Source: a bacterium
Lineage (GTDB): Bacteria; Calditrichota; Calditrichia; RBG-13-44-9; J042
DNA: 36,338 nt
Assembly: GCA_015485355.1 (NCBI GenBank)
Contig: WFTQ01000073.1
Span: forward strand, 1-36,338
Direction: 5' to 3'
The position numbers and the translations under genes are program-made. Below, piece by piece: positions 3,171-18,758 of this stretch. The number at the start of each line of letters is the position of its first letter. Positions within the stretch are counted from its first letter, which is position 1. The notes below the pieces were generated by a model. That model searched no databases. It was not told where the DNA came from and saw nothing but the letters and a program-made list of their open reading frames with translations.

Positions 3171-3215
3171 AAAATTAGGAACAGGCACCCGGGCGGGAGC
3201 CCGAGCACCTGTCCT
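3171..3215 (-). terminator. terminator-like hairpin after the DUF302 gene
   Basis: The arms 3181-3194 and 3199-3212 form a GC-rich stem (ACAGG...CGGGC) with three imperfect pairs and a 4-nt loop; AGG/CCT extends the base. On the minus strand the stem is followed within a few nt by AATTTT. It lies about 50 nt after the DUF302 stop codon. Confidence 0.55.
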
Positions 3216-3262: not shown

Positions 3263-3649
3263 TTATAGTGAATCGATGATCTTTTTTAACTTCGCCCGAA
3301 TCTCGCCGGCAATGGCCCCCAGTTTCGGATTGTCGATGGCCTTCATGGATGCCACCGGATCGACCGCCGCCACTTCAATCTTACCATTCTCCAGTTCCTG
3401 CACCACCACATTGCAAGGAAGCATGGTGCCGATTTTATCCTCCGCCTGAAGGGCCTGGTACGCATAAGGCGGGTTGCAGGCCCCCAGAATCCGGTAGCGC
3501 CGAAAATCGACCTCCAATTTCTTTTTCAACGTTTCTTGAACATCAATCTCTGTGAGAATACCAAATCCTTCTTCCTTCAAGGCTGCGGTGACCCGTTGAA
3601 TCATTTCATCAAAATCGGCGTCGAACTGACGCGCAAAGTAGTAACTCAT
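3263..3649 (-). CDS. DUF302 family protein
   Basis: The 128-residue protein is soluble, with no signal peptide, and has the DUF302 layout: MSYYFARQFDADFDEMIQRVTAALKE, a KKKLEVDFRRYRILGACNPPYAYQAL core and a terminal helical segment. DUF302 proteins have a ferredoxin-like fold; their function is not established, but they recur near sulfur, cytochrome and metal genes. GGAG lies 8 nt before the ATG. It appears monocistronic, with hairpins on either side, and an unusual tandem-repeat sequence lies directly upstream. Confidence 0.85.
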   Translation of the reverse strand: MSYYFARQFDADFDEMIQRVTAALKEEGFGILTEIDVQETLKKKLEVDFRRYRILGACNPPYAYQALQAEDKIGTMLPCNVVVQELENGKIEVAAVDPVASMKAIDNPKLGAIAGEIRAKLKKIIDSL

Positions 3650-3670
3650 TGTATCTCTCCTTTATGTTTT

Positions 3671-3696
3671 GGTTAACCCTTTACCCGTTTACCCGG
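3671..3696 (-). repeat. three short tandem GGGTAA-like repeats before DUF302
   Basis: On the minus strand CGGGTAAA, CGGGTAAA and GGGTTAAC follow one another at 7-8 nt spacing, 20-45 nt upstream of the DUF302 start. A further inverted copy (CGGGTTACCCG on the plus strand) lies near 3761-3773. The spacing suggests a small operator array, but no regulator can be named. Confidence 0.35.
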
Positions 3697-3830
3697 ATAA
3701 AACGTGACGGTTTCGCCTAAGTCTCACGCCTTCTGTACCTTATCATTAGATGGTGAAAACGGGTTCGGGTTACCCGATAGATGCCCTTGGGCGTCGCCTG
3801 ATGGCGCTTCGGTAAAACGCTTTTTCGCCA

Positions 3831-3862
3831 CGGGGCGGATAGCATCCGGCTATCACACCCCG
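3831..3862 (-). terminator. hairpin after the DUF2231 gene, possible terminator
   Basis: This inverted repeat has two stacked stems, CGGGG/CCCCG and GATAGC/GCTATC. It lies about 90 nt downstream of the DUF2231 stop codon. A TTTT occurs on the minus strand 12-15 nt after the stem, too far for a textbook terminator. The remaining bases of the 304-nt gap between DUF302 and DUF2231 show no credible gene, only the CGGGTAA repeats and a 10-bp palindrome CGATATATCG at 3907-3916. Confidence 0.4.
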
Positions 3863-3953
3863 GCAGCGGTTGATGAGACGGCTTAATGTCAGAGACCGAA
3901 ATGTTGCGATATATCGTCATGAGCGACTCGTTCCGTTTCATTGGGGCCTCGTT

Positions 3954-4610
3954 TTAATGTTCATGCACGGAACCATCGTCATGTTTGTGCACCTCTTTTC
4001 CCTTCTTTTGCCCGGCAGCCGCCGGGGTTTCCCCTTCAGAAGGGGTTTCCTGCGATTCACCCTCATGGTGATCTTTTCCGTTATCGTGTTCAGGGGACTC
4101 CATCGGCTGCGTATCGTTGCCGTTGCCATGGGAATGGCCTTCACCGTCATGGGAATGTCCTTCAGATTCCCCCTGAGGAACGGCTTTTACGGCCACACCA
4201 AACTCGTATACCATTTTGCCACCCAGATCACTACTGACAACCACGGTACTCACCCCGATCAGCATAACCAGTAAGTAAACCCATTTCCCTTTTTCTGGAA
4301 AATTCCCTTTTAATCGGAAACGCCAGAAAGTCAGGACGGCCAGTATTCCCCCAATCACGTATCCCAGGTTTTCGTGGGTTTCCATGGTCTCGTGTGCCAG
4401 GTCGTTATGAGGCACATTGTTGGCCGCCAGAAGACCGGTCCCGATCGCCACGATCGAGGCAAAGAATGCCAGGACCAGGTTGATCCAGGCGAATCTATAA
4501 TACAAGGGGTTCTTTTTTATCACTCCCAGGATGTCGAACACAAACGCCACCAACACCAGGGCGATTGGAAAATGCACCACCTTCGGATGCCATAAAGTGA
4601 TATCAAACAT
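3954..4610 (-). CDS. DUF2231 membrane protein with a His-rich metal-binding tail
   Basis: The 218-residue protein begins FDITLWHPKVVHFPIALVL, a DUF2231 hallmark, and has four membrane helices up to about residue 140. The last 75 residues are hydrophilic, with 11 histidines, many acidic residues and repeated GHSH/HKHDD motifs. The DUF2231 core is a haem-independent membrane domain often found with cytochromes; its function is not established. The tail strongly suggests metal-ion binding, probably on one face of the inner membrane. GGAGG precedes the ATG. It lies 15 nt after the outer-membrane protein gene and is the last gene of the cytochrome/porin run. Confidence 0.85.
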   Translation of the reverse strand: MFDITLWHPKVVHFPIALVLVAFVFDILGVIKKNPLYYRFAWINLVLAFFASIVAIGTGLLAANNVPHNDLAHETMETHENLGYVIGGILAVLTFWRFRLKGNFPEKGKWVYLLVMLIGVSTVVVSSDLGGKMVYEFGVAVKAVPQGESEGHSHDGEGHSHGNGNDTQPMESPEHDNGKDHHEGESQETPSEGETPAAAGQKKGKEVHKHDDGSVHEH

Positions 4611-4625
4611 TCGTGACCTCCTTCG

Positions 4626-5501
4626 TTATAATGTGACTTCAATACTGGTATACAGGTTAAATGCCGCACTACTGCGGGTTATCCCCCTTCCTACCACAAC
4701 CAGGGCCGTCAGATCGTCTGATAGGCGATAATACATCCCAAGGTTGACATATCGGGGTGGTTCCACATTCTCCTGAATCTGGGTATACCAGAGATAATAA
4801 GCCGTGAACGATAATTGATTCGTTGCCAGATAATTTATCGTCAAACTGCCAAAAATAGGATTTTGAAATATAAGGGAATCGGGATCCCCAATATCCAGAA
4901 AACCCAGTTCCACTGCGGCGCCCCAATGCGGGGAGAATATGTTTTGAAAGGAAAAACTCCCTCCATAATCCCATTCGCCGGTACCGAACCCACGGGCTGC
5001 ACTGGCAGTGGGCGCTTTTAGTTGTAAATTTGCATATACAGCATATCCCGATGGACCACCACCATAAAGGCGATAGCTGAAATATCCATAGGTATCTCCC
5101 ATGCCACTGATATAGTGTGCGGTGGGAGCCTGGTAATTCATGTGTCGGCCCCACCCACCATGGCCCATGCTCATACCCATACCGTCTCCATCCATATGGG
5201 AACGGGTTTCGTCATCGGGCCCGATGGGATACAATACATTCCCGGTCTGTTGAACCAGATTGGAGTTTTGAATAACCCAGGGAATGCTTACCGATAGATT
5301 CCAGTCTGGTGTTCGATAGCGGAGACCCCCCGCCACGTAAAGGCTGCGGGTGGTCTCGGTTAAGTAGTACTTTCCGTTGTAATAGGACAGATAACCGAAC
5401 ACCGACCATTTCCCATTTGGGGCCGGAAGACCGGTACTCCCAAGGGACAGGAGAAGCATCAGGGCGACAGGGAACAGTGTGTTGATCTTACCCAAGTTCA
5501 T
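4626..5501 (-). CDS. outer-membrane beta-barrel protein with a Met/His-rich loop
   Basis: The 291-residue protein has a signal peptide (about 1-27) and alternating aromatic/polar strands ending in LYTSIEVTL, as expected of an outer-membrane barrel. Residues 101-130 form a loop containing M103, M108, M110, M112, M121 and H102, H114, H120, H129, spaced by Gly and Asp, a likely soft-metal (Cu/Ag) site. It is reminiscent of transporter-like barrels related to phenol-degradation or alginate proteins, but I cannot assign a named family. It sits between a lipoprotein cytochrome and DUF2231, with gaps of about 15 nt, so it is probably cotranscribed. Confidence 0.7.
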   Translation of the reverse strand: MNLGKINTLFPVALMLLLSLGSTGLPAPNGKWSVFGYLSYYNGKYYLTETTRSLYVAGGLRYRTPDWNLSVSIPWVIQNSNLVQQTGNVLYPIGPDDETRSHMDGDGMGMSMGHGGWGRHMNYQAPTAHYISGMGDTYGYFSYRLYGGGPSGYAVYANLQLKAPTASAARGFGTGEWDYGGSFSFQNIFSPHWGAAVELGFLDIGDPDSLIFQNPIFGSLTINYLATNQLSFTAYYLWYTQIQENVEPPRYVNLGMYYRLSDDLTALVVVGRGITRSSAAFNLYTSIEVTL

Positions 5502-5516
5502 AGCGGATTCTGGAAA

Positions 5517-5792
5517 TTAGTTGGCCATTTTTAAAAATTCGACGATTTTCTGCACCTCTTCGTCAGTCAGGGATGCTCTTACCCGCATATGAATGGCGAT
5601 GGTCTCCCACTGGTAATCGTTAAACGCAGGAGGGGACGGGGCGTTATGACAGCGCACACAATTTTCGCCCCATAGCTGGGCTCCGCTTTTTTCCGCAATC
5701 AACGGTTTGTTAGACGAACACGCAACCAGAAGGGTCAGGCCCACAACAACCGCAAGCATTAACACTGCTATCGCCAAATTGCGTTTATACAT
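5517..5792 (-). CDS. lipoprotein mono-haem cytochrome c
   Basis: The ATG at 5792 has AAGGAG 8 nt upstream and gives 91 residues; a longer in-frame start at 5822 lacks a site. A hydrophobic segment ends in the lipobox LVAC (C25), so the mature protein is lipid-anchored. The haem motif is C45-V-R-C48-H49, with M69 (HMRV) as a candidate distal ligand, followed by a C-terminal helix (DEEVQKIVEFLK) usual in class I cytochromes. At about 67 mature residues it is a minimal cytochrome. It sits between porin and barrel genes and could hand electrons across the periplasm; redox partner unknown. Confidence 0.85.
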   Translation of the reverse strand: MYKRNLAIAVLMLAVVVGLTLLVACSSNKPLIAEKSGAQLWGENCVRCHNAPSPPAFNDYQWETIAIHMRVRASLTDEEVQKIVEFLKMAN

Positions 5793-5822
5793 AATGTTCT
5801 CCTTATCGTTTGATACCACCAT

Positions 5823-7019
5823 TTAGAATCCAAACGACCAGTGGATCAGAAAAGCACCCCCCAACGGCGTGCCTTCCTCCTCATGTTCCACCGCTTCGGC
5901 TTCCGCGCCGGGAGCGTCGGTATACTGATAGGAAAATTTGACCACCGTCCGCCAGTCCAGCCAGTAATTTAAGCTCACGGCCCATTGATTTTTTTGCCCT
6001 CCCCAGGCGGCGCCTTCAGCCAGGGTCATCGCCGAGTAACGACCGGCAAACTCCAGCTTCTGGAAAAACGTGTTCGCCACAAATGCCGGCTTAAAGGTTC
6101 CCTGGATGAAATAGGCCGCATTTTCGTTCTTGAAAGTATACATCGTTTCGGGCTTGTCCGGATTGATGTAAGAGGCGTCGTCGACCTGGGTAAGACTGTA
6201 TTGCGCTTTAACATCCACGATGCCTCTTACCGCCGGCACCGTTTTTACCAGGGACAAGTCCAGGGCAAACAGGCGGGCGGCCACATCCCGATAGCGGGAG
6301 TTTTCGTTTCCTACCTTGGCGTATTGGGCCGAGACCCCCAGCTCCAATGCGGAACTGGAAAAAGGCAGAAAACCAAAACGCCCACCAACGGCCTTGTTGG
6401 TGTTGTTGTCCTCGTAATTATCGAAATGGAGCATCCCGGCCGCTTCGGGGGTTTCGCTGCCATCGTTCAGGCTGGGACCATTGATGATGTAGACCGAGTA
6501 ATTGATCTTAGCCGTACCCAACGGCGCCCCACCCCGAATTTCTGCACCCAAGGCCGCTGCCGGGCCAACCTGCTCCCCGTGGTTAAACCCCAAGGGATTG
6601 GAGGGCAGGCGATTAATCCAACGGGGATGCAGGCGCTCGGCAAATATGCCAAAGGGAATCAAAAATTTCCCAACACGCACAATCATGCGCTTGTTTATAA
6701 TGTAGGACATGTTGGCATATTCCAATCCCAACGTGGTCGTCCCGTCTTCCAGGGCCACTTCCAACTCGCCTTCAAACAGCAGGCGGTCGGATTGTTGCCA
6801 GAGGAAAATGGGATTGAAACTCCCACCCACAAAACTGTTTTCTTTCTCATAACTTTCAAAACCCGAATGGGCATAACCTCGCAGCAAAAAACGGCTCAGG
6901 CCTGGTTTCAGTGCCTTTACTTCCTGTTCAACGGTACTCCCTGTTTGGGCGTAAACCGGAAATCCTACCAAAACTCCCATTAATACCACCAGCACAATCG
7001 TAGAACCCCATCGTTTCAT
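5823..7019 (-). CDS. outer-membrane porin
   Basis: The 398-residue protein has a signal peptide ending near residue 24 (VYAQ) and a barrel sequence ending in Phe (LIHWSFGF), the usual C-terminal signature. Features such as the GYAHSGFESYE first strand, a KFLIPFGIFAERLHPRWINR segment and a GAEIRGG strand resemble the phosphate-selective porin O/P-type superfamily. Substrate unknown. AGGAAGGAG lies upstream of the ATG. It is between two cytochrome genes, which suggests either nutrient/metal passage or a porin-cytochrome arrangement. A 332-codon antisense frame here is a shadow. Confidence 0.8.
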   Translation of the reverse strand: MKRWGSTIVLVVLMGVLVGFPVYAQTGSTVEQEVKALKPGLSRFLLRGYAHSGFESYEKENSFVGGSFNPIFLWQQSDRLLFEGELEVALEDGTTTLGLEYANMSYIINKRMIVRVGKFLIPFGIFAERLHPRWINRLPSNPLGFNHGEQVGPAAALGAEIRGGAPLGTAKINYSVYIINGPSLNDGSETPEAAGMLHFDNYEDNNTNKAVGGRFGFLPFSSSALELGVSAQYAKVGNENSRYRDVAARLFALDLSLVKTVPAVRGIVDVKAQYSLTQVDDASYINPDKPETMYTFKNENAAYFIQGTFKPAFVANTFFQKLEFAGRYSAMTLAEGAAWGGQKNQWAVSLNYWLDWRTVVKFSYQYTDAPGAEAEAVEHEEEGTPLGGAFLIHWSFGF

Positions 7020-7053
7020 CTTTCCGCTCCTTCCTAAATCGTTTATCCCGGGT

Positions 7054-7479
7054 TTATTTAGTCTTTTCAGCCAATTGCCGTATGAAGTTCACCACTTGCC
7101 AGCGCTGCTCCTCCGTCAGGGATTCCCGATAGGATGCCATCGGGGGCCGACCGGTGGTGATCTTCCAGTATAACGCGCCATCGCTTTGCTTCTGTACCGC
7201 CTTGGAAATTAGATTGGCCGGTCGGGGATTCAATGCCATTCCAGCAACGCCATCACCTTTTCCGGAATTGCCGTGGCATATAGCGCACAGCTGATTGAAA
7301 ATTTTCTTGCCGGCTTCGGTTGCACCGGGATTGTTCTTGACCGGATTGATCAACGTATCGGCCCAGGCGGGGGCCACCCATTGACTGGATTGAGCCACCA
7401 CAGCGACCGGTGTATTCATCACCGGTAACCAGACCACAACCGCCAGAAGCACTATCAGAATGGGAATTACCGTTTTCAT
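7054..7479 (-). CDS. periplasmic class I cytochrome c
   Basis: The 141-residue protein has an N-terminal signal peptide (about 1-30), the haem motif C65-A-I-C68-H69 followed by GNSGKGDG, and distal Met 114 in GRPPMASYR. The C-terminal helix reads EEQRWQVVNFIRQLAEK. This is the standard single-domain cytochrome c type found with oxidases and alternative electron chains. A good AGAAGGAGA site precedes the ATG. It sits between the Met-rich protein gene and the porin, in the same minus-strand run. A role in periplasmic electron transfer is secure; the donor and acceptor are not known. Confidence 0.88.
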   Translation of the reverse strand: MKTVIPILIVLLAVVVWLPVMNTPVAVVAQSSQWVAPAWADTLINPVKNNPGATEAGKKIFNQLCAICHGNSGKGDGVAGMALNPRPANLISKAVQKQSDGALYWKITTGRPPMASYRESLTEEQRWQVVNFIRQLAEKTK

Positions 7480-7555
7480 GGTCGCTTCTCCTTCTGTTTA
7501 ACACCCGGGGAGAACCCTTTCGGCTTCCCCCCGGATGCGGTTGATGAGGCGTTCG

Positions 7556-8068
7556 CTACTTCTTCTCAGACTGCTTGCCACCACCTCGATGCATTTGTTC
7601 CATGTCCTGGAGCATTCCTTCCATCGCTTTCATCATGTCCTGCATGTGTTGTTGCATCTGCTCCATGTGTTGCTTCATCTGAGGATCCTTCATCATGTCG
7701 GCATTTTGCATCATGGCATTCATCTGTTGCATCATTGCCTGCATGGTTTGTCCCATTTCGCTCATCTGTTGCATCATCCCTCCCATAGGGTTTCCCTGCC
7801 GACCTCCCGACATCTGGCCATGCATCATGCCCTGCTGCCCCTGCATATGTTGCAGGTTCTGGTTTCCCTGCATCATGCCTTGCATGCGGAGCATCATCTG
7901 CTGCATATGCTGCATCATATTTTGCATGCTTTCCATTCCCCGGCTCTGTTGGTGCTGCATGGATTGCATGCCTCCCATATGTTGTTGGGCGGAAACGGCA
8001 CCGGCAAAAATGAACAGCGCCATACCCCATACAATGCGAATACCTATCTCCTGCATCCACCGTTTCAT
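7556..8068 (-). CDS. secreted Met/Gln/His-rich protein (possible copper or silver buffer)
   Basis: The ATG at 8068 has AAAGGAGG upstream and gives 170 residues, with a signal peptide ending at about residue 27 (GAVSA). The mature 143 residues contain 40 methionines (28%), plus many Gln and His, in MQQM, MM and HMQ repeats that predict a long amphipathic coiled coil. Methionine-rich periplasmic proteins bind Cu(I)/Ag(I) in several bacteria, so a metal-sponge role is plausible but inferred. No named family is recognised. The repetitive codons also produce a long His-rich antisense frame, which is a shadow. It is the first gene after the P-II/Lgt unit. Confidence 0.85.
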   Translation of the reverse strand: MKRWMQEIGIRIVWGMALFIFAGAVSAQQHMGGMQSMQHQQSRGMESMQNMMQHMQQMMLRMQGMMQGNQNLQHMQGQQGMMHGQMSGGRQGNPMGGMMQQMSEMGQTMQAMMQQMNAMMQNADMMKDPQMKQHMEQMQQHMQDMMKAMEGMLQDMEQMHRGGGKQSEKK

Positions 8069-8099
8069 AACGGCCTCCTTTGTTTTGATTGGTACCGTG

Positions 8100-8134
8100 G
8101 GACGATCGCATCCCTTAGGGGACTCCCATCGTCC
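8100..8134 (-). other. hairpin between P-II and the Met-rich gene
   Basis: GGACGAT and ATCGTCC pair over a 21-nt loop that itself holds a small TCCC/GGGA stem. It begins 5 nt after the P-II stop codon and ends about 32 nt before the Met-rich start. No U-run follows, so partial termination, RNA processing or differential stability is more likely than a strong terminator. Confidence 0.45.
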
Positions 8135-8138
8135 AACC

Positions 8139-8477
8139 CTACAGCGCGGCTTCGCCCTGGGCACCGGTACGGATCTTCACGACCATATCCACAGGTGAGA
8201 CGTAAATCATGCCGTCGCCTTTTAAACCGGTGTAGGCCGCTTTACGAATCGTCTCCACCACCGTATGGACGTTTTCGTCTCGACACACCACTTCCAGCTT
8301 GGAAATGCGCGAGTATTTCTCCACGTATTCGATGGAATATTTGGTGTTTTGCGGATCCGCCATGGCTCCCATACCCATCACATCGATCAGGGTTACCCCG
8401 TCGATGCCCGCTTCGTCCAGTGCTCGCAGCACTTCTTCTGCCTTCTCGACACGCACGTAGGCCTTGATCTCTTTCAT
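8139..8477 (-). CDS. P-II-like signalling protein (metal-efflux-associated type), Tyr at position 51
   Basis: The 112-residue protein is a close paralogue of the one at 1092-1430 and has the same departures from GlnB at positions 39 (Met) and 90 (Met). Unlike that copy, it keeps Tyr at 51 in IEYVEKY, the residue uridylylated in canonical P-II. It lies 15 nt after lgt in the cusCBA operon, fitting the reported association of the PII-NG group with RND metal pumps. Possible roles are sensing a cytoplasmic metabolite or metal and regulating the pump; neither is proven. Trimer formation with the paralogue is possible. Confidence 0.88.
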   Translation of the reverse strand: MKEIKAYVRVEKAEEVLRALDEAGIDGVTLIDVMGMGAMADPQNTKYSIEYVEKYSRISKLEVVCRDENVHTVVETIRKAAYTGLKGDGMIYVSPVDMVVKIRTGAQGEAAL

Positions 8478-8492
8478 TGATTTCTCCTACCT

Positions 8493-9302
8493 TTACCTTG
8501 CGGAGTTTGTTTTTAACGTGTGATCATTCATCCATTGCTGTAATTCTTTTTGCCGTTTGAGCCGGGCCGTCTGCCAGGTGTAGACACCCAGGAGCACGCC
8601 CGACATCATCAAGCCCAGGCTGATAAGCTGGGCCATGGTGAGACCGGCCCATACGTCCGGGGTGCGCCGCCAAAATTCCACAACGAATCGTTCCAATCCA
8701 TAAAAAATGAACAATCCGCTTACCATCCATCCTCGGGTGGCAATGCGACGGAAGCGCCACAGGATCAGGAAGAACAGTCCGGACAGGATCGTTTCGTATA
8801 GCGGTGTCGGATGGACGGGCACATCCGTGGGAACCAATCCATTGGGGAAAGCCATCGCCCAGGGTAAGTCTGAGGGGACCCCGTAGTCGCCGTCGCCGGC
8901 CAATAAACAACCGATTCGTCCAATGGCGTAACCCAGCAGAATCAGCGGGGCGATACGGTCCGCCATTTCCAGAGTGGGGATGGGAAGTCGGGATATTTTC
9001 CACAATACGGCAGCACTCCCCAAGAAGAACCCACCATACCAGGTCAAACCGCCCCGGTTAACAATCATTCCCAGGGGGTTGTTCAGGAATTCCGGAAAAT
9101 GTTCCAGGATGAAATACAGTCGGGCCCCGATGATACCACCCAGCGCCGCCCATAGCACCAGCTCATATGCCCATTCTGCGGGCAAATCGTGCAGGCGCAA
9201 TTCGCGGGCTAACACCAGGGCAGTTATGAGAAACGCCATAGCCATCATTACGCCATAACTGCCGATTTCCAGGGGCCCGACTTTAAAAAGTACCGGAATC
9301 AT
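8493..9302 (-). CDS. lgt: prolipoprotein diacylglyceryl transferase, divergent type
   Basis: The 269-residue membrane protein has about seven helices and the Lgt family layout: an SYGVMMAMAF start, GGLTWYGGFFLG, the GRIGCLLAGDGDYG signature region and a VHPTPLYE motif. Lgt transfers a diacylglyceryl group from phosphatidylglycerol to the lipobox cysteine of prolipoproteins in the inner membrane. The signature differs from the E. coli NGELYG form, so this may be a second, specialised copy. It lies between cusA and the P-II gene, and lipoprotein genes (5517-5792, 1693-2718) occur downstream, which may explain the placement. AGGAGG lies upstream of the ATG. Confidence 0.85.
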   Translation of the reverse strand: MIPVLFKVGPLEIGSYGVMMAMAFLITALVLARELRLHDLPAEWAYELVLWAALGGIIGARLYFILEHFPEFLNNPLGMIVNRGGLTWYGGFFLGSAAVLWKISRLPIPTLEMADRIAPLILLGYAIGRIGCLLAGDGDYGVPSDLPWAMAFPNGLVPTDVPVHPTPLYETILSGLFFLILWRFRRIATRGWMVSGLFIFYGLERFVVEFWRRTPDVWAGLTMAQLISLGLMMSGVLLGVYTWQTARLKRQKELQQWMNDHTLKTNSAR

Positions 9303-9360: not shown

Positions 9361-12300
9361 TTAGTGCCGTGTTTCCTCACCGGGATTGCTTTCATCGTTG
9401 TTTTCTTGCAATTCCGCTATAATCCGCTTCACTTCCCGGCTTTTCCAGAGATAATAGATTGCGGGAATGACCACCAGCGTCAGAACCGTGGAGGTTACCA
9501 TTCCTCCCACCATCGGCGCGGCAATCCGCTTCATCACCTGAGAGCCGGTACCGGTGCCCCACAAAATGGGCAGGAGACCGGCCATAATGGCGGTCACGGT
9601 CATCATTTTAGGCCGCACACGTTCCACCGCTCCTTCGATGATGGCATCGTATAAATCTTTCAGGGATCGCAACCGTCCGTGCAGTTTGCGGTTTTTGTAG
9701 GCATGGTCCAGATAAATTAACATAACCACACCGGTTTCCGCCGCCACTCCTGCCAGGGCGATAAAGCCCACCCCCACTGCTACGCTGAAGTTGTAATCCA
9801 GAATGTACATGAACCAGATGCCACCCACCAGAGAGAACGGTAGAGAAAGCATGACGATCAGACTTTCCTGAACATTTTTGAAGTTAAAATACAGTAACAG
9901 AAAGATGATCATCAGGGTTATCGGGATGACCACCCGCAAGCGTTGCTGAGCGCGTTCCATATATTCGTACTGACCACTCCAGACGATGCTGTAACCTTCG
10001 GGAAAGTCGATTTGCTCTTCTACGGCTTTTTTGGCATTTTTCACGTAAGTCCCCACATCAATGTCTCGAATATCCACATATAACCAGGCCGTTTTCCGCG
10101 CATTTTCGCTTTTAATCACCGGAGGACCCTTTTTAATTTCCAGTTCGGCCACATAGTTGAGGGGGATTTGCGCCCCTGTGGGCGTGGGAATCAACACCCG
10201 TTTCAACGCTTCGATGTTATCCCGCAATTCCCGGGAATATCGCACATTCACCGGATAACGTTCCAGCCCTTCGACCGTGAAGGTGACATTCATTCCGCCA
10301 ATGGCAGACATAATCACATCCTGGACGTCTCCCACGGTCAGGCCGTAGCGGGCCGCCTCTTCTCGTTTGATTTTGAAATCCAGATAATTGCCGCCCACGG
10401 TCTTGTCCGCAAAAACGCTGAGGGTGCCCGGAACTTCTCGAATCACCGTTTCAATCCGCCGTCCCAGGTCCGACAGTACCTCCAGATCGGGACCCATCAG
10501 CTTAATACCAATGGGGGTTTTGATACCTGTGGAAAGCATGTCTATGCGGGTTTTAATCGGCATCGTCCAGGCATTGGTCAATCCGGGAAACTGGATGGCT
10601 TTGTCCAGTTCTTCCACCAGCTTATCCATGGTCATGCCCGGTCGCCATTCCTCCTTGGGTTTCAGGGTTATGGTGGTTTCAATCATGGATAGGGGTGCCG
10701 GGTCGGTGGCCGTTTCTGCACGGCCGATCTTTCCAAACACACTGTTGACCTCCGGAAAGCTCTTGATGATCTTATCCGTCTGTTGTAAAATTTCCTTGGC
10801 CTTGGTGATACTGATCCCCGGGTCCGTGGTCGGCATATAGAGCAAATCGCCTTCGTTGAGGGGGGGCATAAACTCCGAACCAATATGCTCTACCGGCCAG
10901 ATCGATATCAGGAGGATGATGATGGCAACGAAAATGGTGGTCCATTTAAACCGCAACACCAGGTGAATGATCGGGCGGTACACGCGAATCAGAAAACGAT
11001 TAATGGGGTTTTTTTCTTCGGGCATAATCTTGCCCCGAATGAAGTAACCCATCAACACCGGAACGATGGTAATGGATAACAGGGCCGCTGCGGCCATGGC
11101 ATAGGTTTTGGTGTAAGCCAGGGGTTTAAAGAGACGTCCTTCCTGTGCCTGAAGGGCAAAGACCGGCAGAAAGGAAAGGGTAATAATCAATAGCGAGTAA
11201 AACAGGGCCGGTCCTACTTCTTTGGAGGAATCGATAATCAATTGCCAGTGGTCTTTTTTACCCCCATAGCGTTCGATATGCTTATGGGCATTTTCGATCA
11301 TAACGATAGCCGCATCGACCATGGCCCCGATAGCGATGGCGATACCGCCCAGGGACATGATATTGGCGTTAATGCCCTGATAGTACATGACCAGAAAAGC
11401 CATCAGAATGCCCATGGGAAGTGTAAAAATGGCCACGAAGGAACTGCGAAAGTGCAGCAGAAAGATGATGGTTACCAGCGCGACAACAATGCTTTCTTCA
11501 ATCAGCTTTTCTTTCAGGTTATCGATGGCCCGCTCAATGAGCCCGGAGCGGTCGTAGGCGGGAATAATTTTCACCCCTTCGGGCAAACCCTTTTCCAGTT
11601 CTTTCAGCTTTTCTTTGACGGCATGGATCGTCTTCAGGGCATTTTCTCCCCAGCGCATGACGACAATACCGCCGACGATTTCGCCCTCACCGTTCCAGTC
11701 GGTTAACCCGCGTCGGAGTTCCGGCCCGATGTGAACGTTGGCAATATTCTTAATCAAAATGGGGGTACCGTTTTCGTCCACGCCTACGGGAATATTTTCC
11801 ACGTCTTCGATGGATTGTATATAGCCCAGTCCACGAACCATGAATTCGGTTTCCCCCATTTCCACCAGTCGACCACCAACGTCGTTATTGCTCCGTTTGA
11901 TGGCCATTTTCACTTTGCTTAAGGGGATGTTGTAGGCCAGTAATTTATTGGGATCGACCTCAACTTGATACTGTTTCACATATCCACCGATGCTGGCCAC
12001 TTCGGCCACACCGGGCACGCTCATCAACTCATAGCGCAAATACCAATCCTGTATGGACCGTAACTGCTGCAGGTCATACTGATCTCCACCGTCCAGAACG
12101 TATTCATACACCCAGCCGACACCGGTAGCGTCCGGTCCCAGCGAAGGTGTAACCCCCGGCGGCAGGTTTTTCGACACATAATTCAGATACTCCAATACCC
12201 GGCTACGAGCCCAATATAAGTCGGTACCGTCTTCAAAAATGATGTAAACAAACGACAGCCCAAAGAATGAGTATCCACGCACCACTTTGGCGTAAGGAAC

Positions 12301-12525
12301 CGCCAACATGGCACTGGTTAAGGGGTAGGTTACCTGATCTTCCACCACTTGCGGTGCCTGACCAGGATATTCGGTAAAAATGATTACCTGTACATCACTC
12401 AAGTCCGGGATGGCATCCACCGGTGTCTTTAACATGGTGTAAATACCACCCAGAGCAATGATCACAGTGAACAGGATGATCAGGAATCGATTATTTACCG
12501 AAGCCTCGATAATCTTTTCTAACAT
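9361..12525 (-). CDS. cusA: CusA/CzcA-family RND heavy-metal efflux pump
   Basis: The 1054-residue protein has the heavy-metal-efflux RND layout: helix 1 near residues 14-32, a large periplasmic loop, six more helices from about 340 to 540, a second loop and the final helix set from about 870. Two methionines in LSMIETT and RIDMLSTGI contexts correspond, from memory, to the M573 and M623 copper/silver ligands of E. coli CusA, so Cu(I)/Ag(I) is the best substrate call. It works as a proton-driven trimer with the MFP and TolC-type subunits encoded just upstream. GGAGAG lies 6 nt before the ATG. Confidence 0.95.
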   Translation of the reverse strand: MLEKIIEASVNNRFLIILFTVIIALGGIYTMLKTPVDAIPDLSDVQVIIFTEYPGQAPQVVEDQVTYPLTSAMLAVPYAKVVRGYSFFGLSFVYIIFEDGTDLYWARSRVLEYLNYVSKNLPPGVTPSLGPDATGVGWVYEYVLDGGDQYDLQQLRSIQDWYLRYELMSVPGVAEVASIGGYVKQYQVEVDPNKLLAYNIPLSKVKMAIKRSNNDVGGRLVEMGETEFMVRGLGYIQSIEDVENIPVGVDENGTPILIKNIANVHIGPELRRGLTDWNGEGEIVGGIVVMRWGENALKTIHAVKEKLKELEKGLPEGVKIIPAYDRSGLIERAIDNLKEKLIEESIVVALVTIIFLLHFRSSFVAIFTLPMGILMAFLVMYYQGINANIMSLGGIAIAIGAMVDAAIVMIENAHKHIERYGGKKDHWQLIIDSSKEVGPALFYSLLIITLSFLPVFALQAQEGRLFKPLAYTKTYAMAAAALLSITIVPVLMGYFIRGKIMPEEKNPINRFLIRVYRPIIHLVLRFKWTTIFVAIIILLISIWPVEHIGSEFMPPLNEGDLLYMPTTDPGISITKAKEILQQTDKIIKSFPEVNSVFGKIGRAETATDPAPLSMIETTITLKPKEEWRPGMTMDKLVEELDKAIQFPGLTNAWTMPIKTRIDMLSTGIKTPIGIKLMGPDLEVLSDLGRRIETVIREVPGTLSVFADKTVGGNYLDFKIKREEAARYGLTVGDVQDVIMSAIGGMNVTFTVEGLERYPVNVRYSRELRDNIEALKRVLIPTPTGAQIPLNYVAELEIKKGPPVIKSENARKTAWLYVDIRDIDVGTYVKNAKKAVEEQIDFPEGYSIVWSGQYEYMERAQQRLRVVIPITLMIIFLLLYFNFKNVQESLIVMLSLPFSLVGGIWFMYILDYNFSVAVGVGFIALAGVAAETGVVMLIYLDHAYKNRKLHGRLRSLKDLYDAIIEGAVERVRPKMMTVTAIMAGLLPILWGTGTGSQVMKRIAAPMVGGMVTSTVLTLVVIPAIYYLWKSREVKRIIAELQENNDESNPGEETRH

Positions 12526-12576: not shown

Positions 12577-14118
12577 TTAATGCGCATGTTCGTTGGATTG
12601 CCCTGAATGGTCCATATCTTCCCTATCGCCCGACGGTTTTTCCGGGCCGGACGGTGCCTGTCGCTTTTTCATTCGTTCTTTCAACATCTTCTGAATGGCT
12701 TCTTGCAATCGGCTTTCGCTATCCAGCATGAACTGGGCCGACACCACGATCTTTTCGCCGGGTAACAGCCCGGCCAGTATCCGCAGCATCCCGTCTTCGC
12801 CTTCCTCGCCGATCTTGACCTGCCGCGGTTCGAATTTTCCCGGCTCTCGGACAACAAATACTATGTTCCGCACTCCCGAACGAATCACCGCCTCGGTCGG
12901 AATCACCAGAGCATCGGGAATCGTCTTGCCCTTGATAAGCACATTGGCATACATCCCGGGACGCAACTCCAATCGGGGGTTTTCAAATTCCATTCGAATT
13001 TTTACATCCCGGGCCTTCTTGTCCAGGTAAGGATAGATGTAAATAATCCGACCATTAAATGTTTTTCCGGGTAGGTAAGACAATTCCATGGTCGCTTCCT
13101 GACCCAACTCGATCCAGGGGAGTTCGTGGTCATATACCGTGGCATATACCCATACTGTGGATAGATCGGCGATCTGATACAGCGGTTGGCCTTCCTTGAC
13201 GTAGGAGCCCTCCACCGCATTCTTATGAATGACCACTCCTCTTGCGGGCGCTTGCAGCTGCAGCGTTTTTCGAACTTCCCCGGTCTCCTCCAGGCGGCGA
13301 ATCTCGGTATCGGGGATGTCCCAATACTTCAGTCGCTTCAGAGAGGCCTTTAGTAGAGACTCCGCACCGTCCCGAATCGATTGAAACGAGGTTTTATTGA
13401 CCAGTTTAAGGTTATTCAACGCCAGAAGGTATTCTTCCTGGGTGGTCACCAGCTCCGGCGAATAAATTTCCAATAAAGGCTGCCCGGGAAATACCATCTT
13501 GCCGGTAAAATCCACATACAGGCGCTCAATCCAGCCAGAAATTTTCGGCGAAACGGTGTAGAGGGTCTTTTCGTTATATTCGATGTATCCCACGGTACGG
13601 ATGACTTTATGGAAATCCCGTTTTTTCACCCGGGTTATCCGGATACCCATGTTCTGCACTGTCACCGGATCGATACGCACCGTGCCACCGGCCCCCAGTT
13701 CCGCTTCATCTTCATACACGGGGATCAGGTCCATTCCCATTTTCGATTTACCCGGGCGATCATAAATCTCCGTGGGATCCATGGGCGCCCGCCAATAAAG
13801 GATTTTGCGTTCCTTTTTGGGTTTTTTCTCTTTCGGCTGATCATCCGCGGCCATGGCCTCGTGTTCCATGTCGCCCATGGCTTCTTCGGCGGCACCGGTA
13901 CCTTTGACAGGCACCAGTTTCATTCCGCAAATCGGACAATTGCCCGGTTCATCCAGAATCACTTCCGGGTGCATCCCGCAGGTCCATAACTGCCCCTCGG
14001 CGGATTGTTCCGTTTCCACACCGGTATCGGTATCGGAGAACATGAAGTAACCACCCACTGCAATCAGCACAATCAGCGCAGCAATCGCAATTCCAAGGAT
14101 AGTGCGTCGATTTTTCAT
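12577..14118 (-). CDS. cusB: CusB-type periplasmic adaptor with heavy-metal-binding domain
   Basis: The 513-residue protein has a membrane anchor (7-27), a heavy-metal-binding domain at 45-72 with C47, H50, C61, C64 (TCGMHP...CPICGMKL), and a second, cysteine-free copy at about 106-136 (YWRAPMDP...KMGMDLIPV) typical of CusB proteins. Barrel-sandwich, lipoyl and beta-barrel regions follow, and the tail is His-rich (HSGQ...EHAH). As the membrane fusion protein it bridges CusA to the outer-membrane channel and can hand metal to the pump. It sits between tolC and cusA, with gaps of about 40-50 nt. Confidence 0.93.
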   Translation of the reverse strand: MKNRRTILGIAIAALIVLIAVGGYFMFSDTDTGVETEQSAEGQLWTCGMHPEVILDEPGNCPICGMKLVPVKGTGAAEEAMGDMEHEAMAADDQPKEKKPKKERKILYWRAPMDPTEIYDRPGKSKMGMDLIPVYEDEAELGAGGTVRIDPVTVQNMGIRITRVKKRDFHKVIRTVGYIEYNEKTLYTVSPKISGWIERLYVDFTGKMVFPGQPLLEIYSPELVTTQEEYLLALNNLKLVNKTSFQSIRDGAESLLKASLKRLKYWDIPDTEIRRLEETGEVRKTLQLQAPARGVVIHKNAVEGSYVKEGQPLYQIADLSTVWVYATVYDHELPWIELGQEATMELSYLPGKTFNGRIIYIYPYLDKKARDVKIRMEFENPRLELRPGMYANVLIKGKTIPDALVIPTEAVIRSGVRNIVFVVREPGKFEPRQVKIGEEGEDGMLRILAGLLPGEKIVVSAQFMLDSESRLQEAIQKMLKERMKKRQAPSGPEKPSGDREDMDHSGQSNEHAH

Positions 14119-14158: not shown

Positions 14159-15433
14159 TTAATAAGTTAAAATGTCCTGCCCGACGACGTACTCCATTCG
14201 GGCGATGCTTTTGTAATAGGCACTCAGAATACGATGATAATCCATTTCGTAGTTGTAGAGGGTAATCTGATTGTTCAGCAATGTCAGAAAGTCCACCTTA
14301 TCCGTCTGGTACCCTGCAATGGCCGAATTCAAAGATTGGGTGGCCTGAGGGATAATTCCGGTGCGGTACAAATCGATCAATTGCCAGCTCTTTTCCAGGG
14401 TGGACCAGGTGCTTTCAACTTCCGAGAGCACTTGATTTCTCAAATTCTCATATTCCTGTTGGGCCGAGATCTGCTGATATTGGCGTTGTTCCACCACTTT
14501 GCGTTGTTTCTTCCAGAAGTACAACGGTACTTTAATGGTAAACAGGCCGGAAATGAAATCCACTCCTTTTCCCCCGGTGCGCAGCGCATCCCGCTGGGTG
14601 TAAGCAACGGCTACTTTAAAATCCGGTAAATATTCCTTTTTGGCCAGTCGCACGGCCTTTTGTTGTTTCTCCACCCTAAACCGCCAGGCTTTCAATAAAG
14701 GGCGGTTGGCCACCGCCAGTTCCCGCAAGTCTTCCAGCTTCAGGGGAAAAGGCAATTCCGTTAAGCGAGCGGTTTGCCAAACCGGCGAGGCCGGGGGGCG
14801 GCTCAGCAAATAGTTCAATCGGGCCACCAGTACTTCCCGACGGTTTTGCAAGGATATGATCTTATCGGTCATCCGGGAATGTTCCACCTGGGCCCGCAAC
14901 ACATCCTGTTGTAAGCCCCTGCCAACCGTGTATTTGGTTTCCGCTATCTTGATGAACTGCACCAAAATGTCTGCATTTTTCTGGGTGATTTCGATCGCCT
15001 TATCGATATAATAGATGTCGTAATAGGTTTGTTTGACCAGCATACGCAATTGATTCAACCCTTCCTGATATTGTTCGTGGGCTATCTGGGCATCATCCCG
15101 GGCGATATTTTCCTTTAAGCCCAGTTTTCCGGGGAAGGGAAAGTACTGCATAAAGGAAATTTGCTTACCCGTCATGGCTTCCTGGTCGAAGGCAAAGCTA
15201 TTCACCGGTAAATTCAGAAAATTAATACCAATCTGCGGATCGGGCAGGGCCCCTGCGGGAGCGACGGCCGCCTCCTGAGCCTTCCACTGATGCAACAGGG
15301 CTTTTACTCTTGGGTTTTCTTCCTGAAGCTCCTGCAACAGATCGGAAAGTCGCAATGTATCGGTCGCACTCTGAGCGAGAACAGACCCGGTTAGTATTAG
15401 CACGAAGAAGAAAAGCGCATAAACATTTCTCAT
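14159..15433 (-). CDS. TolC-family outer-membrane channel (CusC-type)
   Basis: The 424-residue protein has a signal peptide (about 1-20, VLAQ) and two TolC repeat halves rich in long coiled-coil helices, with the family motifs NPRVKALLHQW, ARDDAQIAHEQY and TARLTELPFP. It is the outer-membrane exit duct for the CusBA pump. AGGAGG precedes the ATG. It lies 17 nt after the small membrane protein and 40 nt before cusB, in one operon driven by the sigma-54-like promoter at 15904-15919. Confidence 0.92.
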   Translation of the reverse strand: MRNVYALFFFVLILTGSVLAQSATDTLRLSDLLQELQEENPRVKALLHQWKAQEAAVAPAGALPDPQIGINFLNLPVNSFAFDQEAMTGKQISFMQYFPFPGKLGLKENIARDDAQIAHEQYQEGLNQLRMLVKQTYYDIYYIDKAIEITQKNADILVQFIKIAETKYTVGRGLQQDVLRAQVEHSRMTDKIISLQNRREVLVARLNYLLSRPPASPVWQTARLTELPFPLKLEDLRELAVANRPLLKAWRFRVEKQQKAVRLAKKEYLPDFKVAVAYTQRDALRTGGKGVDFISGLFTIKVPLYFWKKQRKVVEQRQYQQISAQQEYENLRNQVLSEVESTWSTLEKSWQLIDLYRTGIIPQATQSLNSAIAGYQTDKVDFLTLLNNQITLYNYEMDYHRILSAYYKSIARMEYVVGQDILTY

Positions 15434-15450: not shown

Positions 15451-15870
15451 CTATAGTTTAGCGGTTTGTCCAGGATCCGTGGGCCTGGAAATTCGGTTCC
15501 GGCGTTTCTTTTTTCCGATGCCTCGGGTAAAAACGATGTAACCGATAAAAATGATAAACAGACTGGCCCACCAGAAGGGGGCGAATTTTCGTAAATAAAA
15601 TTTCAGCGGCTCCGAATGTTGATCCATTTCCTGAACCCGGTCACTTTTTGCATCGACGATTCCCGGTGATTGAGACTTCCCGATAGCGGGAACGGTGGTT
15701 TCATCGGCATGGTAATGATGGGTACCGGGATGGTCTGAATAGACCAGACGATGATACAAACAGGTATAATCATTCCCCAACTGAACCGGAAAAAACAGAA
15801 TGCCCCCCAGCATTCCCAGGGTTACTAACACCCATCCAATAATCCTTATGGTGAGTTTCCTTTGATTCAC
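15451..15870 (-). CDS. small two-helix membrane protein, first gene of the efflux operon
   Basis: The 139-residue protein has membrane helices at about 8-28 and 98-117. The segment between them, likely periplasmic, contains Cys and a His cluster (TCLYHRLVYSDHPGTHHYHADE region), a plausible metal site; the C-terminus is basic and likely cytoplasmic. I do not recognise a family. As first gene of the sigma-54 efflux operon, with AGGAGG before the ATG, it may act as a metal-binding accessory or signalling protein for the pump or kinase. That role is inferred from position and composition. Confidence 0.75.
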   Translation of the reverse strand: MNQRKLTIRIIGWVLVTLGMLGGILFFPVQLGNDYTCLYHRLVYSDHPGTHHYHADETTVPAIGKSQSPGIVDAKSDRVQEMDQHSEPLKFYLRKFAPFWWASLFIIFIGYIVFTRGIGKKKRRNRISRPTDPGQTAKL

Positions 15871-15903
15871 CGATTCCTCCTAAATCTTTTAGCCCGCTTA
15901 TTT

Positions 15904-15919
15904 AACAACTGCCGTGCCA
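15904..15919 (-). promoter_or_regulatory. sigma-54 (-24/-12) promoter of the efflux operon
   Basis: The minus strand reads TGGCACG-GCAG-TTGTT, an exact -24 box with correct GG-N10-G spacing; only the -12 C is replaced by T. The predicted start is near 15893, leaving about 22 nt of leader with AGGAGG before the first gene. An NtrC-type activator is encoded immediately upstream, and paired palindromes lie about 155 and 178 nt from the start. Confidence 0.8.
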
Positions 15920-16039
15920 TAAAATCGAAGGGGTTTTTATGAAGAAACGAAAACCCTGAAAAACGACCAATTGTTAAAGAGCCCAGCGCCGAGACCCGTA
16001 TTCTCCCTTGCCGGTCTCCGGCTATAAGTTGCTCCATAA

Positions 16040-16080
16040 TGTGGCATATTCTACATGGAGTCTGTAGAATATTCTACAGA
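16040..16080. promoter_or_regulatory. paired enhancer-binding palindromes (UAS) of the efflux operon
   Basis: Site B, TCTGTAGAATATTCTACAGA at 16061-16080, is a perfect 20-bp palindrome. Site A, TGTGGCATATTCTACA at 16040-16055, is an imperfect copy. Centres are 23 bp apart, about two helical turns, as for NtrC-type dimer pairs. They lie between the regulator gene and the sigma-54-like promoter. Related sites at 1023-1071 support a shared regulator. Confidence 0.75.
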
Positions 16081-16122
16081 GACCGATGTTTTGATGAGGT
16101 CCCGTGTTCTTCGCATTTTGTC

Positions 16123-16168
16123 AAAAAACCCGGGATATTCGACGGATCCATGGAGGGTATTTCCGGGT
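16123..16168 (-). terminator. candidate terminator of the kinase-regulator operon
   Basis: On the minus strand ACCCGG pairs with CCGGGT across a 34-nt loop, and the downstream arm runs straight into six Ts. It lies about 27-72 nt after the regulator stop codon and ahead of the enhancer pair. The long loop makes it a weak call. Confidence 0.4.
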
Positions 16169-16194
16169 GGATGCATTGGGGAACCTTGGAAACG

Positions 16195-17553
16195 CTATTC
16201 CATTCCCAGCTTTTTCAACCGGTACAGCAGCACGTGGCGGGGAATGTTTAACAAACGTGCGGCCTTGGAGCGGTTGCCGCCCGCCCGACGTAACGCCTCT
16301 TCAATAACCTTGCGCTCAATCTGCTCCAGGGAAAGGTCTTCTTCTTGCAGAAAGGCCTCGCCGGAAAGGCGGGATGCCTTCTCGCGGTTCAGCAAACGGG
16401 GCGGCAAACAGTCCGTACCAATGCGGTTATCCTGGGCCAGAATCACCGCGCGTTCGGCAATGTTTTCCAGCTCGCGTACATTGCCCGGCCAATCATAGCG
16501 CATCAGCACGTCCAACACCTCCGGCTCCACACGGAACATCTTCCCCTGTCCGTGTTTTGTTAAAAAATGTTCAAACAGTACGGGAATTTCTTCTTTTCTT
16601 TCCCGCAGGGGAGGAATGGTGATGGGAAAGACGCTTAACCGATAATACAGGTCTTCCCGGAAACGGCCTTCTTTTACCAGCTGTTCCAGATTTTTATTGG
16701 TTGCCGCGATAATGCGTACATCCACGTGCACTTTTTCGGAGCTGCCCACCGGCTCGAACTCCTGTTCCTGCAGTACCCGCAGTAATTTGGCCTGCAGATC
16801 AAATTTGAGATCCCCGATTTCGTCCAGAAATATGGTTCCCCCGTTTGCCAGCTCAAATTTACCCTTGCGATCTTTAATGGCGCCGGTAAAAGCCCCTTTC
16901 ACATGACCGAAGAGTTCGCTCTCCAGCAGATTGTCGGGAATGGAAGGACAATTCACGGTAATAAGGGGTTTTTCCCGGCGGGGAGAGTTGTAGTGGATGG
17001 CCCGGGCCAGTAATTCTTTTCCTGTACCGCTTTCGCCGAGGATGAGCACGGTTGCATCGCTGGCGGCCACCCGTATGGCCATTTTTAAAACGGCTTCCAT
17101 CTTGGGACTACGGGAAATTAAATTGTTGAACCCATGCTGATCGATCAGCTCTTCTTTTAACTGAATGTTCTCCTGCTGGAGCTCCCGCAACCGCTGGGCC
17201 TTGCCAATTACAAAACGCAGCTGCTCTTGGCTGAAAGGTTTGGTCAGGTAGTCATCCGCCCCCAGCTGGCAGGCCTTGATCGCACTATCCAGACTGCCAT
17301 ATGCGGTGATGATGATGACGATCACCTGATCGTTTTTCTCCCGAATTTGCTTCAGGACATCAATACCCGAAAGATCGGGCATCTGTACATCGGTGAGCAC
17401 AATATCGAAAGGTCGGCTCTGGAAAAGTTTCAATCCCTCCCGCCCGCTGTGGGCGATACTCACCTGAAATCCCTGTTTTTCCAGCTGGTACCCCACTACC
17501 TTGCAAAGATTGATATCATCATCAATTAATAACAAACGATTACCGCCGCTCAT
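16195..17553 (-). CDS. NtrC-family sigma-54 response regulator
   Basis: The 452-residue protein has a receiver domain (D11-D13, phospho-acceptor D55, K105), a sigma-54 AAA+ domain with Walker A GESGTGKE (173-180) and the sigma-54 contact loop GAFTGA (220-225), and a C-terminal Fis-type helix-turn-helix (about 415-450, GGNRSKAARLLNIPRHVLLYRLKK). All elements look intact. Such proteins bind upstream palindromes when phosphorylated and remodel sigma-54 polymerase. Overall design is like ZraR/HydG, a known Zn/Pb-responsive activator. It overlaps the kinase gene by 4 nt and lies next to the predicted sites at 16040-16080, so regulation of the efflux operon is a strong inference. Confidence 0.93.
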   Translation of the reverse strand: MSGGNRLLLIDDDINLCKVVGYQLEKQGFQVSIAHSGREGLKLFQSRPFDIVLTDVQMPDLSGIDVLKQIREKNDQVIVIIITAYGSLDSAIKACQLGADDYLTKPFSQEQLRFVIGKAQRLRELQQENIQLKEELIDQHGFNNLISRSPKMEAVLKMAIRVAASDATVLILGESGTGKELLARAIHYNSPRREKPLITVNCPSIPDNLLESELFGHVKGAFTGAIKDRKGKFELANGGTIFLDEIGDLKFDLQAKLLRVLQEQEFEPVGSSEKVHVDVRIIAATNKNLEQLVKEGRFREDLYYRLSVFPITIPPLRERKEEIPVLFEHFLTKHGQGKMFRVEPEVLDVLMRYDWPGNVRELENIAERAVILAQDNRIGTDCLPPRLLNREKASRLSGEAFLQEEDLSLEQIERKVIEEALRRAGGNRSKAARLLNIPRHVLLYRLKKLGME

Positions 17554-18758
17554 GCTTGAACCTGTTTTATGGTTTTGGGTATACGAAGGTTAAAGGTGGT
17601 CCCCTTACCCGGGGCACTGTCCACAGCAATTTGCCACCCGTTTTTCTCCACAATGCGTTTCACAATGGCTAATCCCAATCCGGTTCCCCTGGCTTTGGTG
17701 GTAAAGAAAGGATCGAAAATACGGTTCAGGTTTTCCGCCGGAATGCCCATTCCGGTATCTCTCACCTGGATCTGAACCCATTCCCATTCCGGAATAAGGG
17801 TGGCGGGTTTTCCCGGAGGGGAAGGCTTTTCCGGGCGATCCTCATCGCTGACCAATCGACAGACGATTTCGATGCGGCCGCCATGGGGCATGGCCTCTCG
17901 GGCATTCAGCAATAGATTCAGCATGATCTGCTGCAACTGAATGGCATCTCCGTAAATCGTGATGGGGTAATCCGGTAAATCCAGTTCCAGTTCAATGCCC
18001 GCCTTCCGGGCACTCTTTTCGAACAGGATCATAGAAGTTTGTAGAACCTCTCGAACATCGAATCGGCTGAGGATGTGTTTTTCCTTGCGGGCCAAACCCA
18101 GATAATTTTCCACCACGTCGCTTAACCGCCGGGTTTCTTGAAGCAAGATTTCAAAAAACTTTTCCGTGTTCGGGTCTTTGGGAACTTCATCCCGCAAAAT
18201 TTCCACCGCTCCCTGGATGGCGCCCAGGGGATTGCGTACCTCGTGGGCCAGGCTGGCGGAAAGTTCTCCCACAATGGCCAGACGATCCGTTGTTCGCAAC
18301 TGCTCTTCCAATTCGGCCAATTTCGCCGCCTGCTCCTGGATTTTACGAAACGACTGCTGCAATTGAAGCGCCACCTCCTGATAACGCCGTTTTTCCTCCT
18401 GTTCCCGCTCCGCCTTCACCCCGGTGAAGTAGCCTATCACATTAAACAGCACGATCTGAATAAAGCGTAACAAATTGTTTTCATTGATCCCTCCCCATTG
18501 TAACATGATGTGGGGAAAATAGATCAGGCTGATGATGACGGCCGAACCCAGTCCCCCTTTTACCCCGAACTGAAGAGCACCGACCAGAATCGGAATAAAA
18601 TAACTTTGCATGTAAATGATATGAAACTGCCACTTATTGGTCGGGGTGGAATAGTGGAGGAAAGAGATCAGGGCGATCAGCAGTAAAATGGTTACCCCCA
18701 GAAAGAGCTGATAGGTCAACGACGGTGCCTCACCATTATGATTGGTGAAGAATTCCAT
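17550..18758 (-). CDS. membrane histidine kinase, partner of the adjacent NtrC-type regulator
   Basis: The 402-residue protein has about four membrane helices in residues 15-115 with almost no periplasmic domain, a coiled-coil linker (118-155), HisKA with H172 (SLAHEVRNPLG), and an HATPase domain with N-box NLLLNAREAM and G-boxes DTGMGIP and GTGLGLAIV. Sensing may therefore occur in the membrane, unlike ZraS or CusS, which have periplasmic sensors. The stop overlaps the regulator start as ATGA, coupling their translation. It phosphorylates the regulator; the signal, presumably metal or redox, is inferred. No strong ribosome-binding site is seen. Confidence 0.9.
   Translation of the reverse strand: MEFFTNHNGEAPSLTYQLFLGVTILLLIALISFLHYSTPTNKWQFHIIYMQSYFIPILVGALQFGVKGGLGSAVIISLIYFPHIMLQWGGINENNLLRFIQIVLFNVIGYFTGVKAEREQEEKRRYQEVALQLQQSFRKIQEQAAKLAELEEQLRTTDRLAIVGELSASLAHEVRNPLGAIQGAVEILRDEVPKDPNTEKFFEILLQETRRLSDVVENYLGLARKEKHILSRFDVREVLQTSMILFEKSARKAGIELELDLPDYPITIYGDAIQLQQIMLNLLLNAREAMPHGGRIEIVCRLVSDEDRPEKPSPPGKPATLIPEWEWVQIQVRDTGMGIPAENLNRIFDPFFTTKARGTGLGLAIVKRIVEKNGWQIAVDSAPGKGTTFNLRIPKTIKQVQA

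Follow-up and report, generated by a model that had tools for sequence, protein, structure and literature searches.

The CusR regulator of E. coli is an OmpR-type protein that acts with sigma-70. ZraSR responds to zinc/lead and envelope stress and is not known to control a CusCBA operon. Activators of the NtrC family form hexamers, loop the DNA and use ATP, and NtrC also acts at its own genes. Sigma-54 control of copper genes has been reported in Myxococcus xanthus, where the CorSR system acts on the curA operon (PMC3707914), and the sigma-54 activator Nla28 of the same organism has a reported target locus, MXAN989, that encodes CusA and CusB (PMC9765219). So far, such control has been described mainly in Myxococcus. 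A 2020 copper review makes no mention of sigma-54, RpoN or NtrC (PMC7558416), the Caldithrix abyssi genome paper makes none of sigma factors (PMC5317091), and papers on the Desulfovibrio sigma-54 regulome and on response-regulator mapping do not mention copper. We found no prior description of the regulon or motif reported below in the open-access literature.

The window analysed here is the whole stretch of 36,338 nt. The initial annotation had proposed that a cus-type operon within it is controlled by a sigma-54 promoter, enhancers and an adjacent activator, and had called sigma-54 control of Cus-type genes an unusual design. The latter was overstated, given the Myxococcus precedents of CorSR and of Nla28 on a cusAB locus. 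The proposal itself is supported by a conserved layout and by a regulator clade that tracks both CusA and motif density, and has to be widened from one operon to a copper regulon. From these sequence comparisons, we consider it highly probable that the cus promoter belongs to a phylum-wide copper regulon in Calditrichota that depends on sigma-54 and is controlled by the adjacent two-component system.

The cus operon and its promoter region

A near-consensus -24/-12 box, TGGCACGGCAGTTGT, was indeed found before the first operon gene, on the minus strand at 15919-15905 and 35 nt 5' of the GTG start of ORF139 (15870). The ribosome-binding site AGGAGG lies between box and GTG, and the -12 end of the box reads TTGT, not TTGC. 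The closest relative carries a box, TGGCACGGCAGTTGA, at the equivalent place, and further relatives likewise have a box there. The box pattern alone is not exceptional, with 13 matches in the window at ≤2 mismatches compared to 10.6 expected; because counts in both window and genome were near the control, the box on its own was dropped as evidence.

Palindrome matches in the window at ≤3 mismatches numbered four, compared to 0.04 expected. One of these, TGTAGAATATTCTACA at 16063-16078, is exact and forms the centre of a longer palindrome, TCTGTAGAATATTCTACAGA, which is perfect over 20 bp. The second, TGTGGCATATTCTACA at 16040-16055, has two mismatches, so that the original description of two copies was right for the first site and slightly generous for the other. 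The starts at 16040 and 16063 confirm the 23-bp spacing, and the distances given to the predicted transcription start near 15893, ~155 and ~178 nt, are also correct. The remaining two matches (1023 and 1056) are part of a second promoter of the same kind.

Features of the window and, in the last row, of relatives
Feature	Position	Strand	Basis
Sensor histidine kinase: membrane domain, HisKA, HATPase	17550-18758	minus	domain search
NtrC-type response regulator, predicted activator: receiver, GAFTGA AAA+ domain, Fis-type HTH	16195-17553	minus	domain search
Enhancer palindrome 1, exact TGTAGAATATTCTACA (predicted)	16063-16078		palindrome search; genome-wide counts
Enhancer palindrome 2, TGTGGCATATTCTACA (predicted)	16040-16055		23 bp from palindrome 1; spacing kept in relatives
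Sigma-54 -24/-12 promoter TGGCACGGCAGTTGT of the cus operon (predicted)	15905-15919	minus	pattern match; box kept in relatives
ORF139, first operon gene, small protein, two candidate TM segments	15451-15870	minus	YTCLYHR motif, His-rich loop
CusC-like outer-membrane efflux protein	14159-15433	minus	PF02321
CusB-like adaptor, two heavy-metal-binding (HMBD) repeats	12577-14118	minus	domain search
CusA RND pump	9361-12525	minus	TIGR00914; alignment to E. coli CusA
Co-directional copper island	3263-9302	minus	gene direction; domain matches
Lgt	8493-9302	minus	copper island
Met/His-rich protein	7556-8164	minus	copper island
Cytochrome c	7054-7479	minus	copper island
Porin	5823-7019	minus	copper island
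ORF291	4626-5501	minus	copper island
DUF2231	3954-4610	minus	copper island
DUF302	3263-3649	minus	copper island
Terminator-like 16-bp hairpin 3' of DUF302, candidate end of long transcript	3179-3214	minus	hairpin search
P-II-like protein, 112 residues	1092-1430	minus	domain search
Second palindrome pair TGAATAATAATCTACA, TGAAGAAAATTCTACA, 33 bp apart (1023/1056)	1023-1071		palindrome search
Second sigma-54 box TGGCATTGATTTTGA, 43 nt before RseC-like gene	937-951	minus	box search; like arrangement before RseC-like gene in L108
RseC_MucC-like gene, predicted target of second promoter	412-894	minus	domain search
YHS-type gene, predicted target of second promoter	215-394	minus	domain search
Kinase-gene palindromes over sigma-70-like promoter (relatives)	L108:5019, L111:5353, L114:4187, L151:2983, L160:2607		sequence search

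The window's CusA scored 1286 bits against a TIGR00914 cut-off of 701, and in an alignment over the whole length the Cu(I) methionines of E. coli CusA, M573, M623 and M672 (numbering counted off the printed alignment), are all Met in the window protein. For the adaptor the best model was CusB, at 232 bits against a cut-off of 390. The CusA methionines and the HMBD repeats, together with the CPH-type ATPases and multicopper oxidase described below, suggest Cu(I)/Ag(I) as the cargo. ORF139 had no family match in Pfam or NCBIfam; its homologs (L107, L108, L113-L120, L122, L123, L129, L132, L136, L137, L146) evolve fast, with 25-42% identity outside the genus, and retain YTCLYHR, the His-rich loop and a YAFxWW motif. 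Possibly, ORF139 is a copper-handling accessory protein that replaces CusF.

All genes from 15870 to 3263 share one direction, and a hairpin stands at 3214-3179, making a single transcript of ~12.7 kb possible; an internal promoter would fit into the gap after Lgt, which measures at least 330 bp. For several copper-island genes, homologs in relatives follow CusA or palindrome/sigma-54 sites of their own. The protein at 7556-8164, rich in Met, His and Gln, carries MQHMQQMM repeats, is probably secreted and is perhaps a periplasmic metal buffer. Elsewhere, an RseC_MucC-like gene stands behind a palindrome/sigma-54 promoter in two genera (412-894 in the window; L108:14900-15379), and the P-II-like protein recurs right after CusA or behind such a promoter in L108, L113, L117, L118, L120, L126, L129 and L133.

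Palindrome sites across the genome and the phylum

In the window's own genome (3.44 Mb in 114 contigs), the palindrome was found 23 times at ≤3 mismatches, compared to three times for a reversed-pattern control. A sigma-54-like box, scored with a simple home-made weighting, lies 60-200 bp away and correctly facing at 8 of the 9 sites with ≤2 mismatches; the same box is found near 7.7% of random positions (binomial p=1e-8). In the relatives, 48 of 57 good palindrome sites have a box nearby (binomial p 1e-44 against the same 7.7%). The combination of box and palindrome is far above chance. These comparisons drew on 40 genomes of the phylum, the window's own included, with the relatives' loci partly chosen by motif.

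The arrangement is constrained as well as frequent. Over the 48 promoters, the two palindromes are spaced by 22 bp (16 times), 23 bp (9 times), 20-21 bp (6 times) or 31-33 bp (5 times), that is, about two helical turns for 20-23 bp or three for 31-33 bp, and the start of the -24 box is 67-152 bp from the nearer palindrome. The consensus from 86 sites is again TGTAGAATATTCTACA, with flanks that lack strong conservation; for the box it is TGGCAY-N5-TTG(A/C).

Kinase, regulator, palindrome pair, sigma-54 box, ORF139, CusC, CusB and CusA follow one another in one direction, an order that is mostly kept where the contig is long enough to judge. In L129, L132, L136, L137 and L146 the cus operon lies apart from the regulator, on another contig or in another place, and pair and box are still present. 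In all, ~20 cus promoters are of this type, which answers the suggestion in the initial annotation that the palindrome be sought upstream of cusCBA in relatives.

In the own genome, C81 has such a box before genes for a YHS and an LTXXQ protein. In C104, one promoter precedes a thioredoxin-like gene and the gene of a CPH-type P1B ATPase, whose N-terminus is His-rich, and a second precedes genes of cytochrome c biogenesis type. Further boxes stand before a TAT-exported multicopper oxidase (C109) and an MMPL-type transporter (C35). Most ATPases behind such promoters are of CPH type, with CPC ATPases also among the targets, as are envelope-type genes (LTXXQ, RseC, porin, MMPL, CsgG-like). Some targets have single palindromes or weak boxes only. 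In C63, a well-formed palindrome (G000:C63:7315; L005:4816) and a box (7163; L005:4664) precede an unassigned 102-residue ORF that is not an evident copper gene and has no copper gene nearby. Matches with three mismatches in C3, C20, C25, C41, C72, C76, C89, C108, C111 and C112, mostly within coding regions, were set aside as background.

The adjacent regulator and kinase

As the initial annotation stated, the gene next to the promoter encodes a regulator with an intact GAFTGA loop and a Fis-type DNA-binding domain. The loop lies in an AAA+ domain, the DNA-binding domain is an HTH, and the receiver retains the phospho-acceptor Asp. The genome contains one rpoN, and -24/-12 promoters lie downstream of predicted enhancer sites, consistent at the sequence level with an NtrC-type assignment. 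The regulator scored 404.7 bits against the ZraR model, below the cut-off of 760 for an equivalog match. Orthologs (E below 1e-139, 51-93% identity) are present in 27 of the 40 genomes, including the window's own, and other NtrC-type regulators are about 50% identical or less. The loop reads GSFTGA in three orthologs and GSYTGA in one. The own genome has ~19 sigma-54 activators including this one; in a tree with 15 of the ~18 paralogs, the orthologs form one clade (support 99/96) apart from the 15. Of 23 orthologs, 21 share exactly the recognition helix PRHVLLY and the others differ by one or two similar residues (PRHTLIY, PRHVLIY); this helix was not seen in the 15 own-genome paralogs read.

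Genomes with an ortholog have 1.41 motifs per Mb and those without have 0.40 (p=3e-5), compared to control values of 0.13 and 0.09. Both the regulator and this CusA are present in 24 genomes, the regulator alone in 3, CusA alone in 1 and neither in 12 (Fisher p=1e-6); since the genomes are related, these co-occurrence p-values overstate independence. We infer that the adjacent regulator binds the palindromes.

No recognised input domain, periplasmic sensor domain or HAMP match was found in the kinase, which scored 181 bits against the ZraS model, below the equivalog cut-off of 479. Its residues 1-115 are hydrophobic, with four candidate TM segments, and its invariant positions include H35, H46, P82-H83 and M85; M50 is almost invariant. 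With a cytoplasmic N-terminus, H35, H46, M50, H83 and M85 would all be at the periplasmic edge, forming a plausible Cu(I) site. The four-TM topology is our own reading, because the predicted model, although confident (pLDDT 89), draws residues 54-86 as one helix. A structure search with the sensor model gave no significant relative among solved structures. In a scan of 85,000 species, the sensor domain was found in 20 Calditrichota-type loci, a few of which carry other labels such as Deferribacteres, and in one Geobacter kinase; the latter has no link to the regulator, cus genes or palindrome, and we discarded it as a sign of wider spread.

In five relatives, a single palindrome overlaps a sigma-70-like promoter (TTGCAt-N17-TACAAT/TACACT) just 5' of the kinase gene; this site is absent from the window's genome. 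Such a placement would allow autorepression and resembles the action of NtrC at its own genes.

Proposed mechanism, alternatives and known systems

In the mechanism that we propose, the membrane kinase (17550-18758) would be activated when copper is in excess, probably by Cu(I) on the outer side of the inner membrane, and would phosphorylate the receiver of the regulator (16195-17553). Regulator dimers would then bind the two palindromes, which the spacing of two helical turns would place on the same face of the DNA. Hexamers assembled there would reach, through a DNA loop, the closed sigma-54 RNA polymerase at 15919-15905 and, using ATP through the GAFTGA loop, would open the closed complex. 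The transcript from about 15893 would cover ORF139-CusC-CusB-CusA, and it may run on through the copper island as far as the hairpin at 3214.

That copper is the signal is suggested by gene content. The same architecture could serve another signal, either envelope or redox stress in general or a different soft metal (silver, zinc), much as ZraSR serves zinc and envelope stress; the envelope-type targets and the matches of kinase and regulator to the ZraS and ZraR models, albeit below their cut-offs, would fit such a role. We think this rather unlikely, because the commonest recurrent targets are of copper type (CusCBA with its Cu(I) methionines, CPH and CPC ATPases, multicopper oxidase) and the His/Met conservation of the kinase fits a soft metal, of which silver would act like Cu(I). 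A further and more specific proposal about the signal is that the kinase is a new copper sensor, with a four-TM input that lacks a periplasmic domain and takes Cu(I) at the membrane's outer edge via H35, H46, M50, H83 and M85, and that it drives a phylum-wide sigma-54 regulon through a phased two-site enhancer code, its own sigma-70-type promoter being autorepressed in some members. This we offer tentatively, as a possibility about which we have real doubts.

The palindrome might also be read by some other protein, such as another sigma-54 activator or an unrelated copper repressor, with the adjacent regulator binding elsewhere. Any of the sigma-54 activators in the genome could in principle bind it, and one genome (G003, an incomplete assembly) has seven motifs and CusA and lacks a regulator ortholog. 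Nevertheless, adjacency of the regulator in many genomes, its co-occurrence with CusA and motif, and the pairing of a near-invariant recognition helix with an invariant motif make this improbable, as does the fact that some relatives carry the motif right at the kinase gene; moreover, the steady position 5' of sigma-54 boxes would be needless for a repressor. It is more improbable still that the box is a chance match, the palindromes are an ordinary operator and transcription of the operon comes from sigma-70 read-through out of the regulator genes or from another promoter. The box pattern alone is barely enriched, and no terminator was found between the regulator gene and the operon, so read-through is possible. 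However, box and palindrome stand together at a constrained distance in 48 promoters, the GAFTGA loop is intact, and no sigma-70-like site was found on the minus strand at 15800-16220, leaving sigma-70 alone as the driver without support. Control by the adjacent system through sigma-54 is the reading we retain.

If this is so, a phylum known mostly from uncultured genomes gains a concrete copper regulon in which the regulator, the DNA code and the targets are specified, and its kinase may sense copper within the membrane. Relative to the systems already described, the phylum, the defined enhancer code, the regulon and a sensor with invariant His/Met and no periplasmic domain are new. Like NtrBC at glnA, the locus has paired palindromic enhancers upstream of a sigma-54 promoter, with a different signal, motif and targets. 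With CusSR/CusCFBA of E. coli it shares two-component control of a CusCBA pump in which all three CusA Cu(I) methionines are kept, but here the regulator is NtrC-type with sigma-54, no CusF gene was seen and ORF139 is first in the operon. ZraSR/ZraP of E. coli is likewise a metal-linked NtrC-type system with sigma-54 promoters and an LTXXQ periplasmic target, as found here too, although the window proteins fall far below the ZraR and ZraS cut-offs. Nla28 is a regulator of starvation and development with another 8-bp half-site motif and promoter sequence (PMC9765219). CorSR is also a copper-linked two-component system, its regulator has the same receiver, sigma-54 activator and Fis HTH order, and the multicopper oxidase and P1B ATPase genes under its control have putative sigma-54 promoters (PMC3707914). 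The searched text of that paper makes no mention of a palindromic binding site. CorSR differs in controlling curA, as opposed to a CusCBA operon, and CorS has a signal peptide, a periplasmic sensor region and HAMP (PMC3707914), whereas the window kinase has a membrane-only input domain. On the reading retained here, a sigma-54 answer to copper stress would be a conserved plan and not a peculiarity of Myxococcus.
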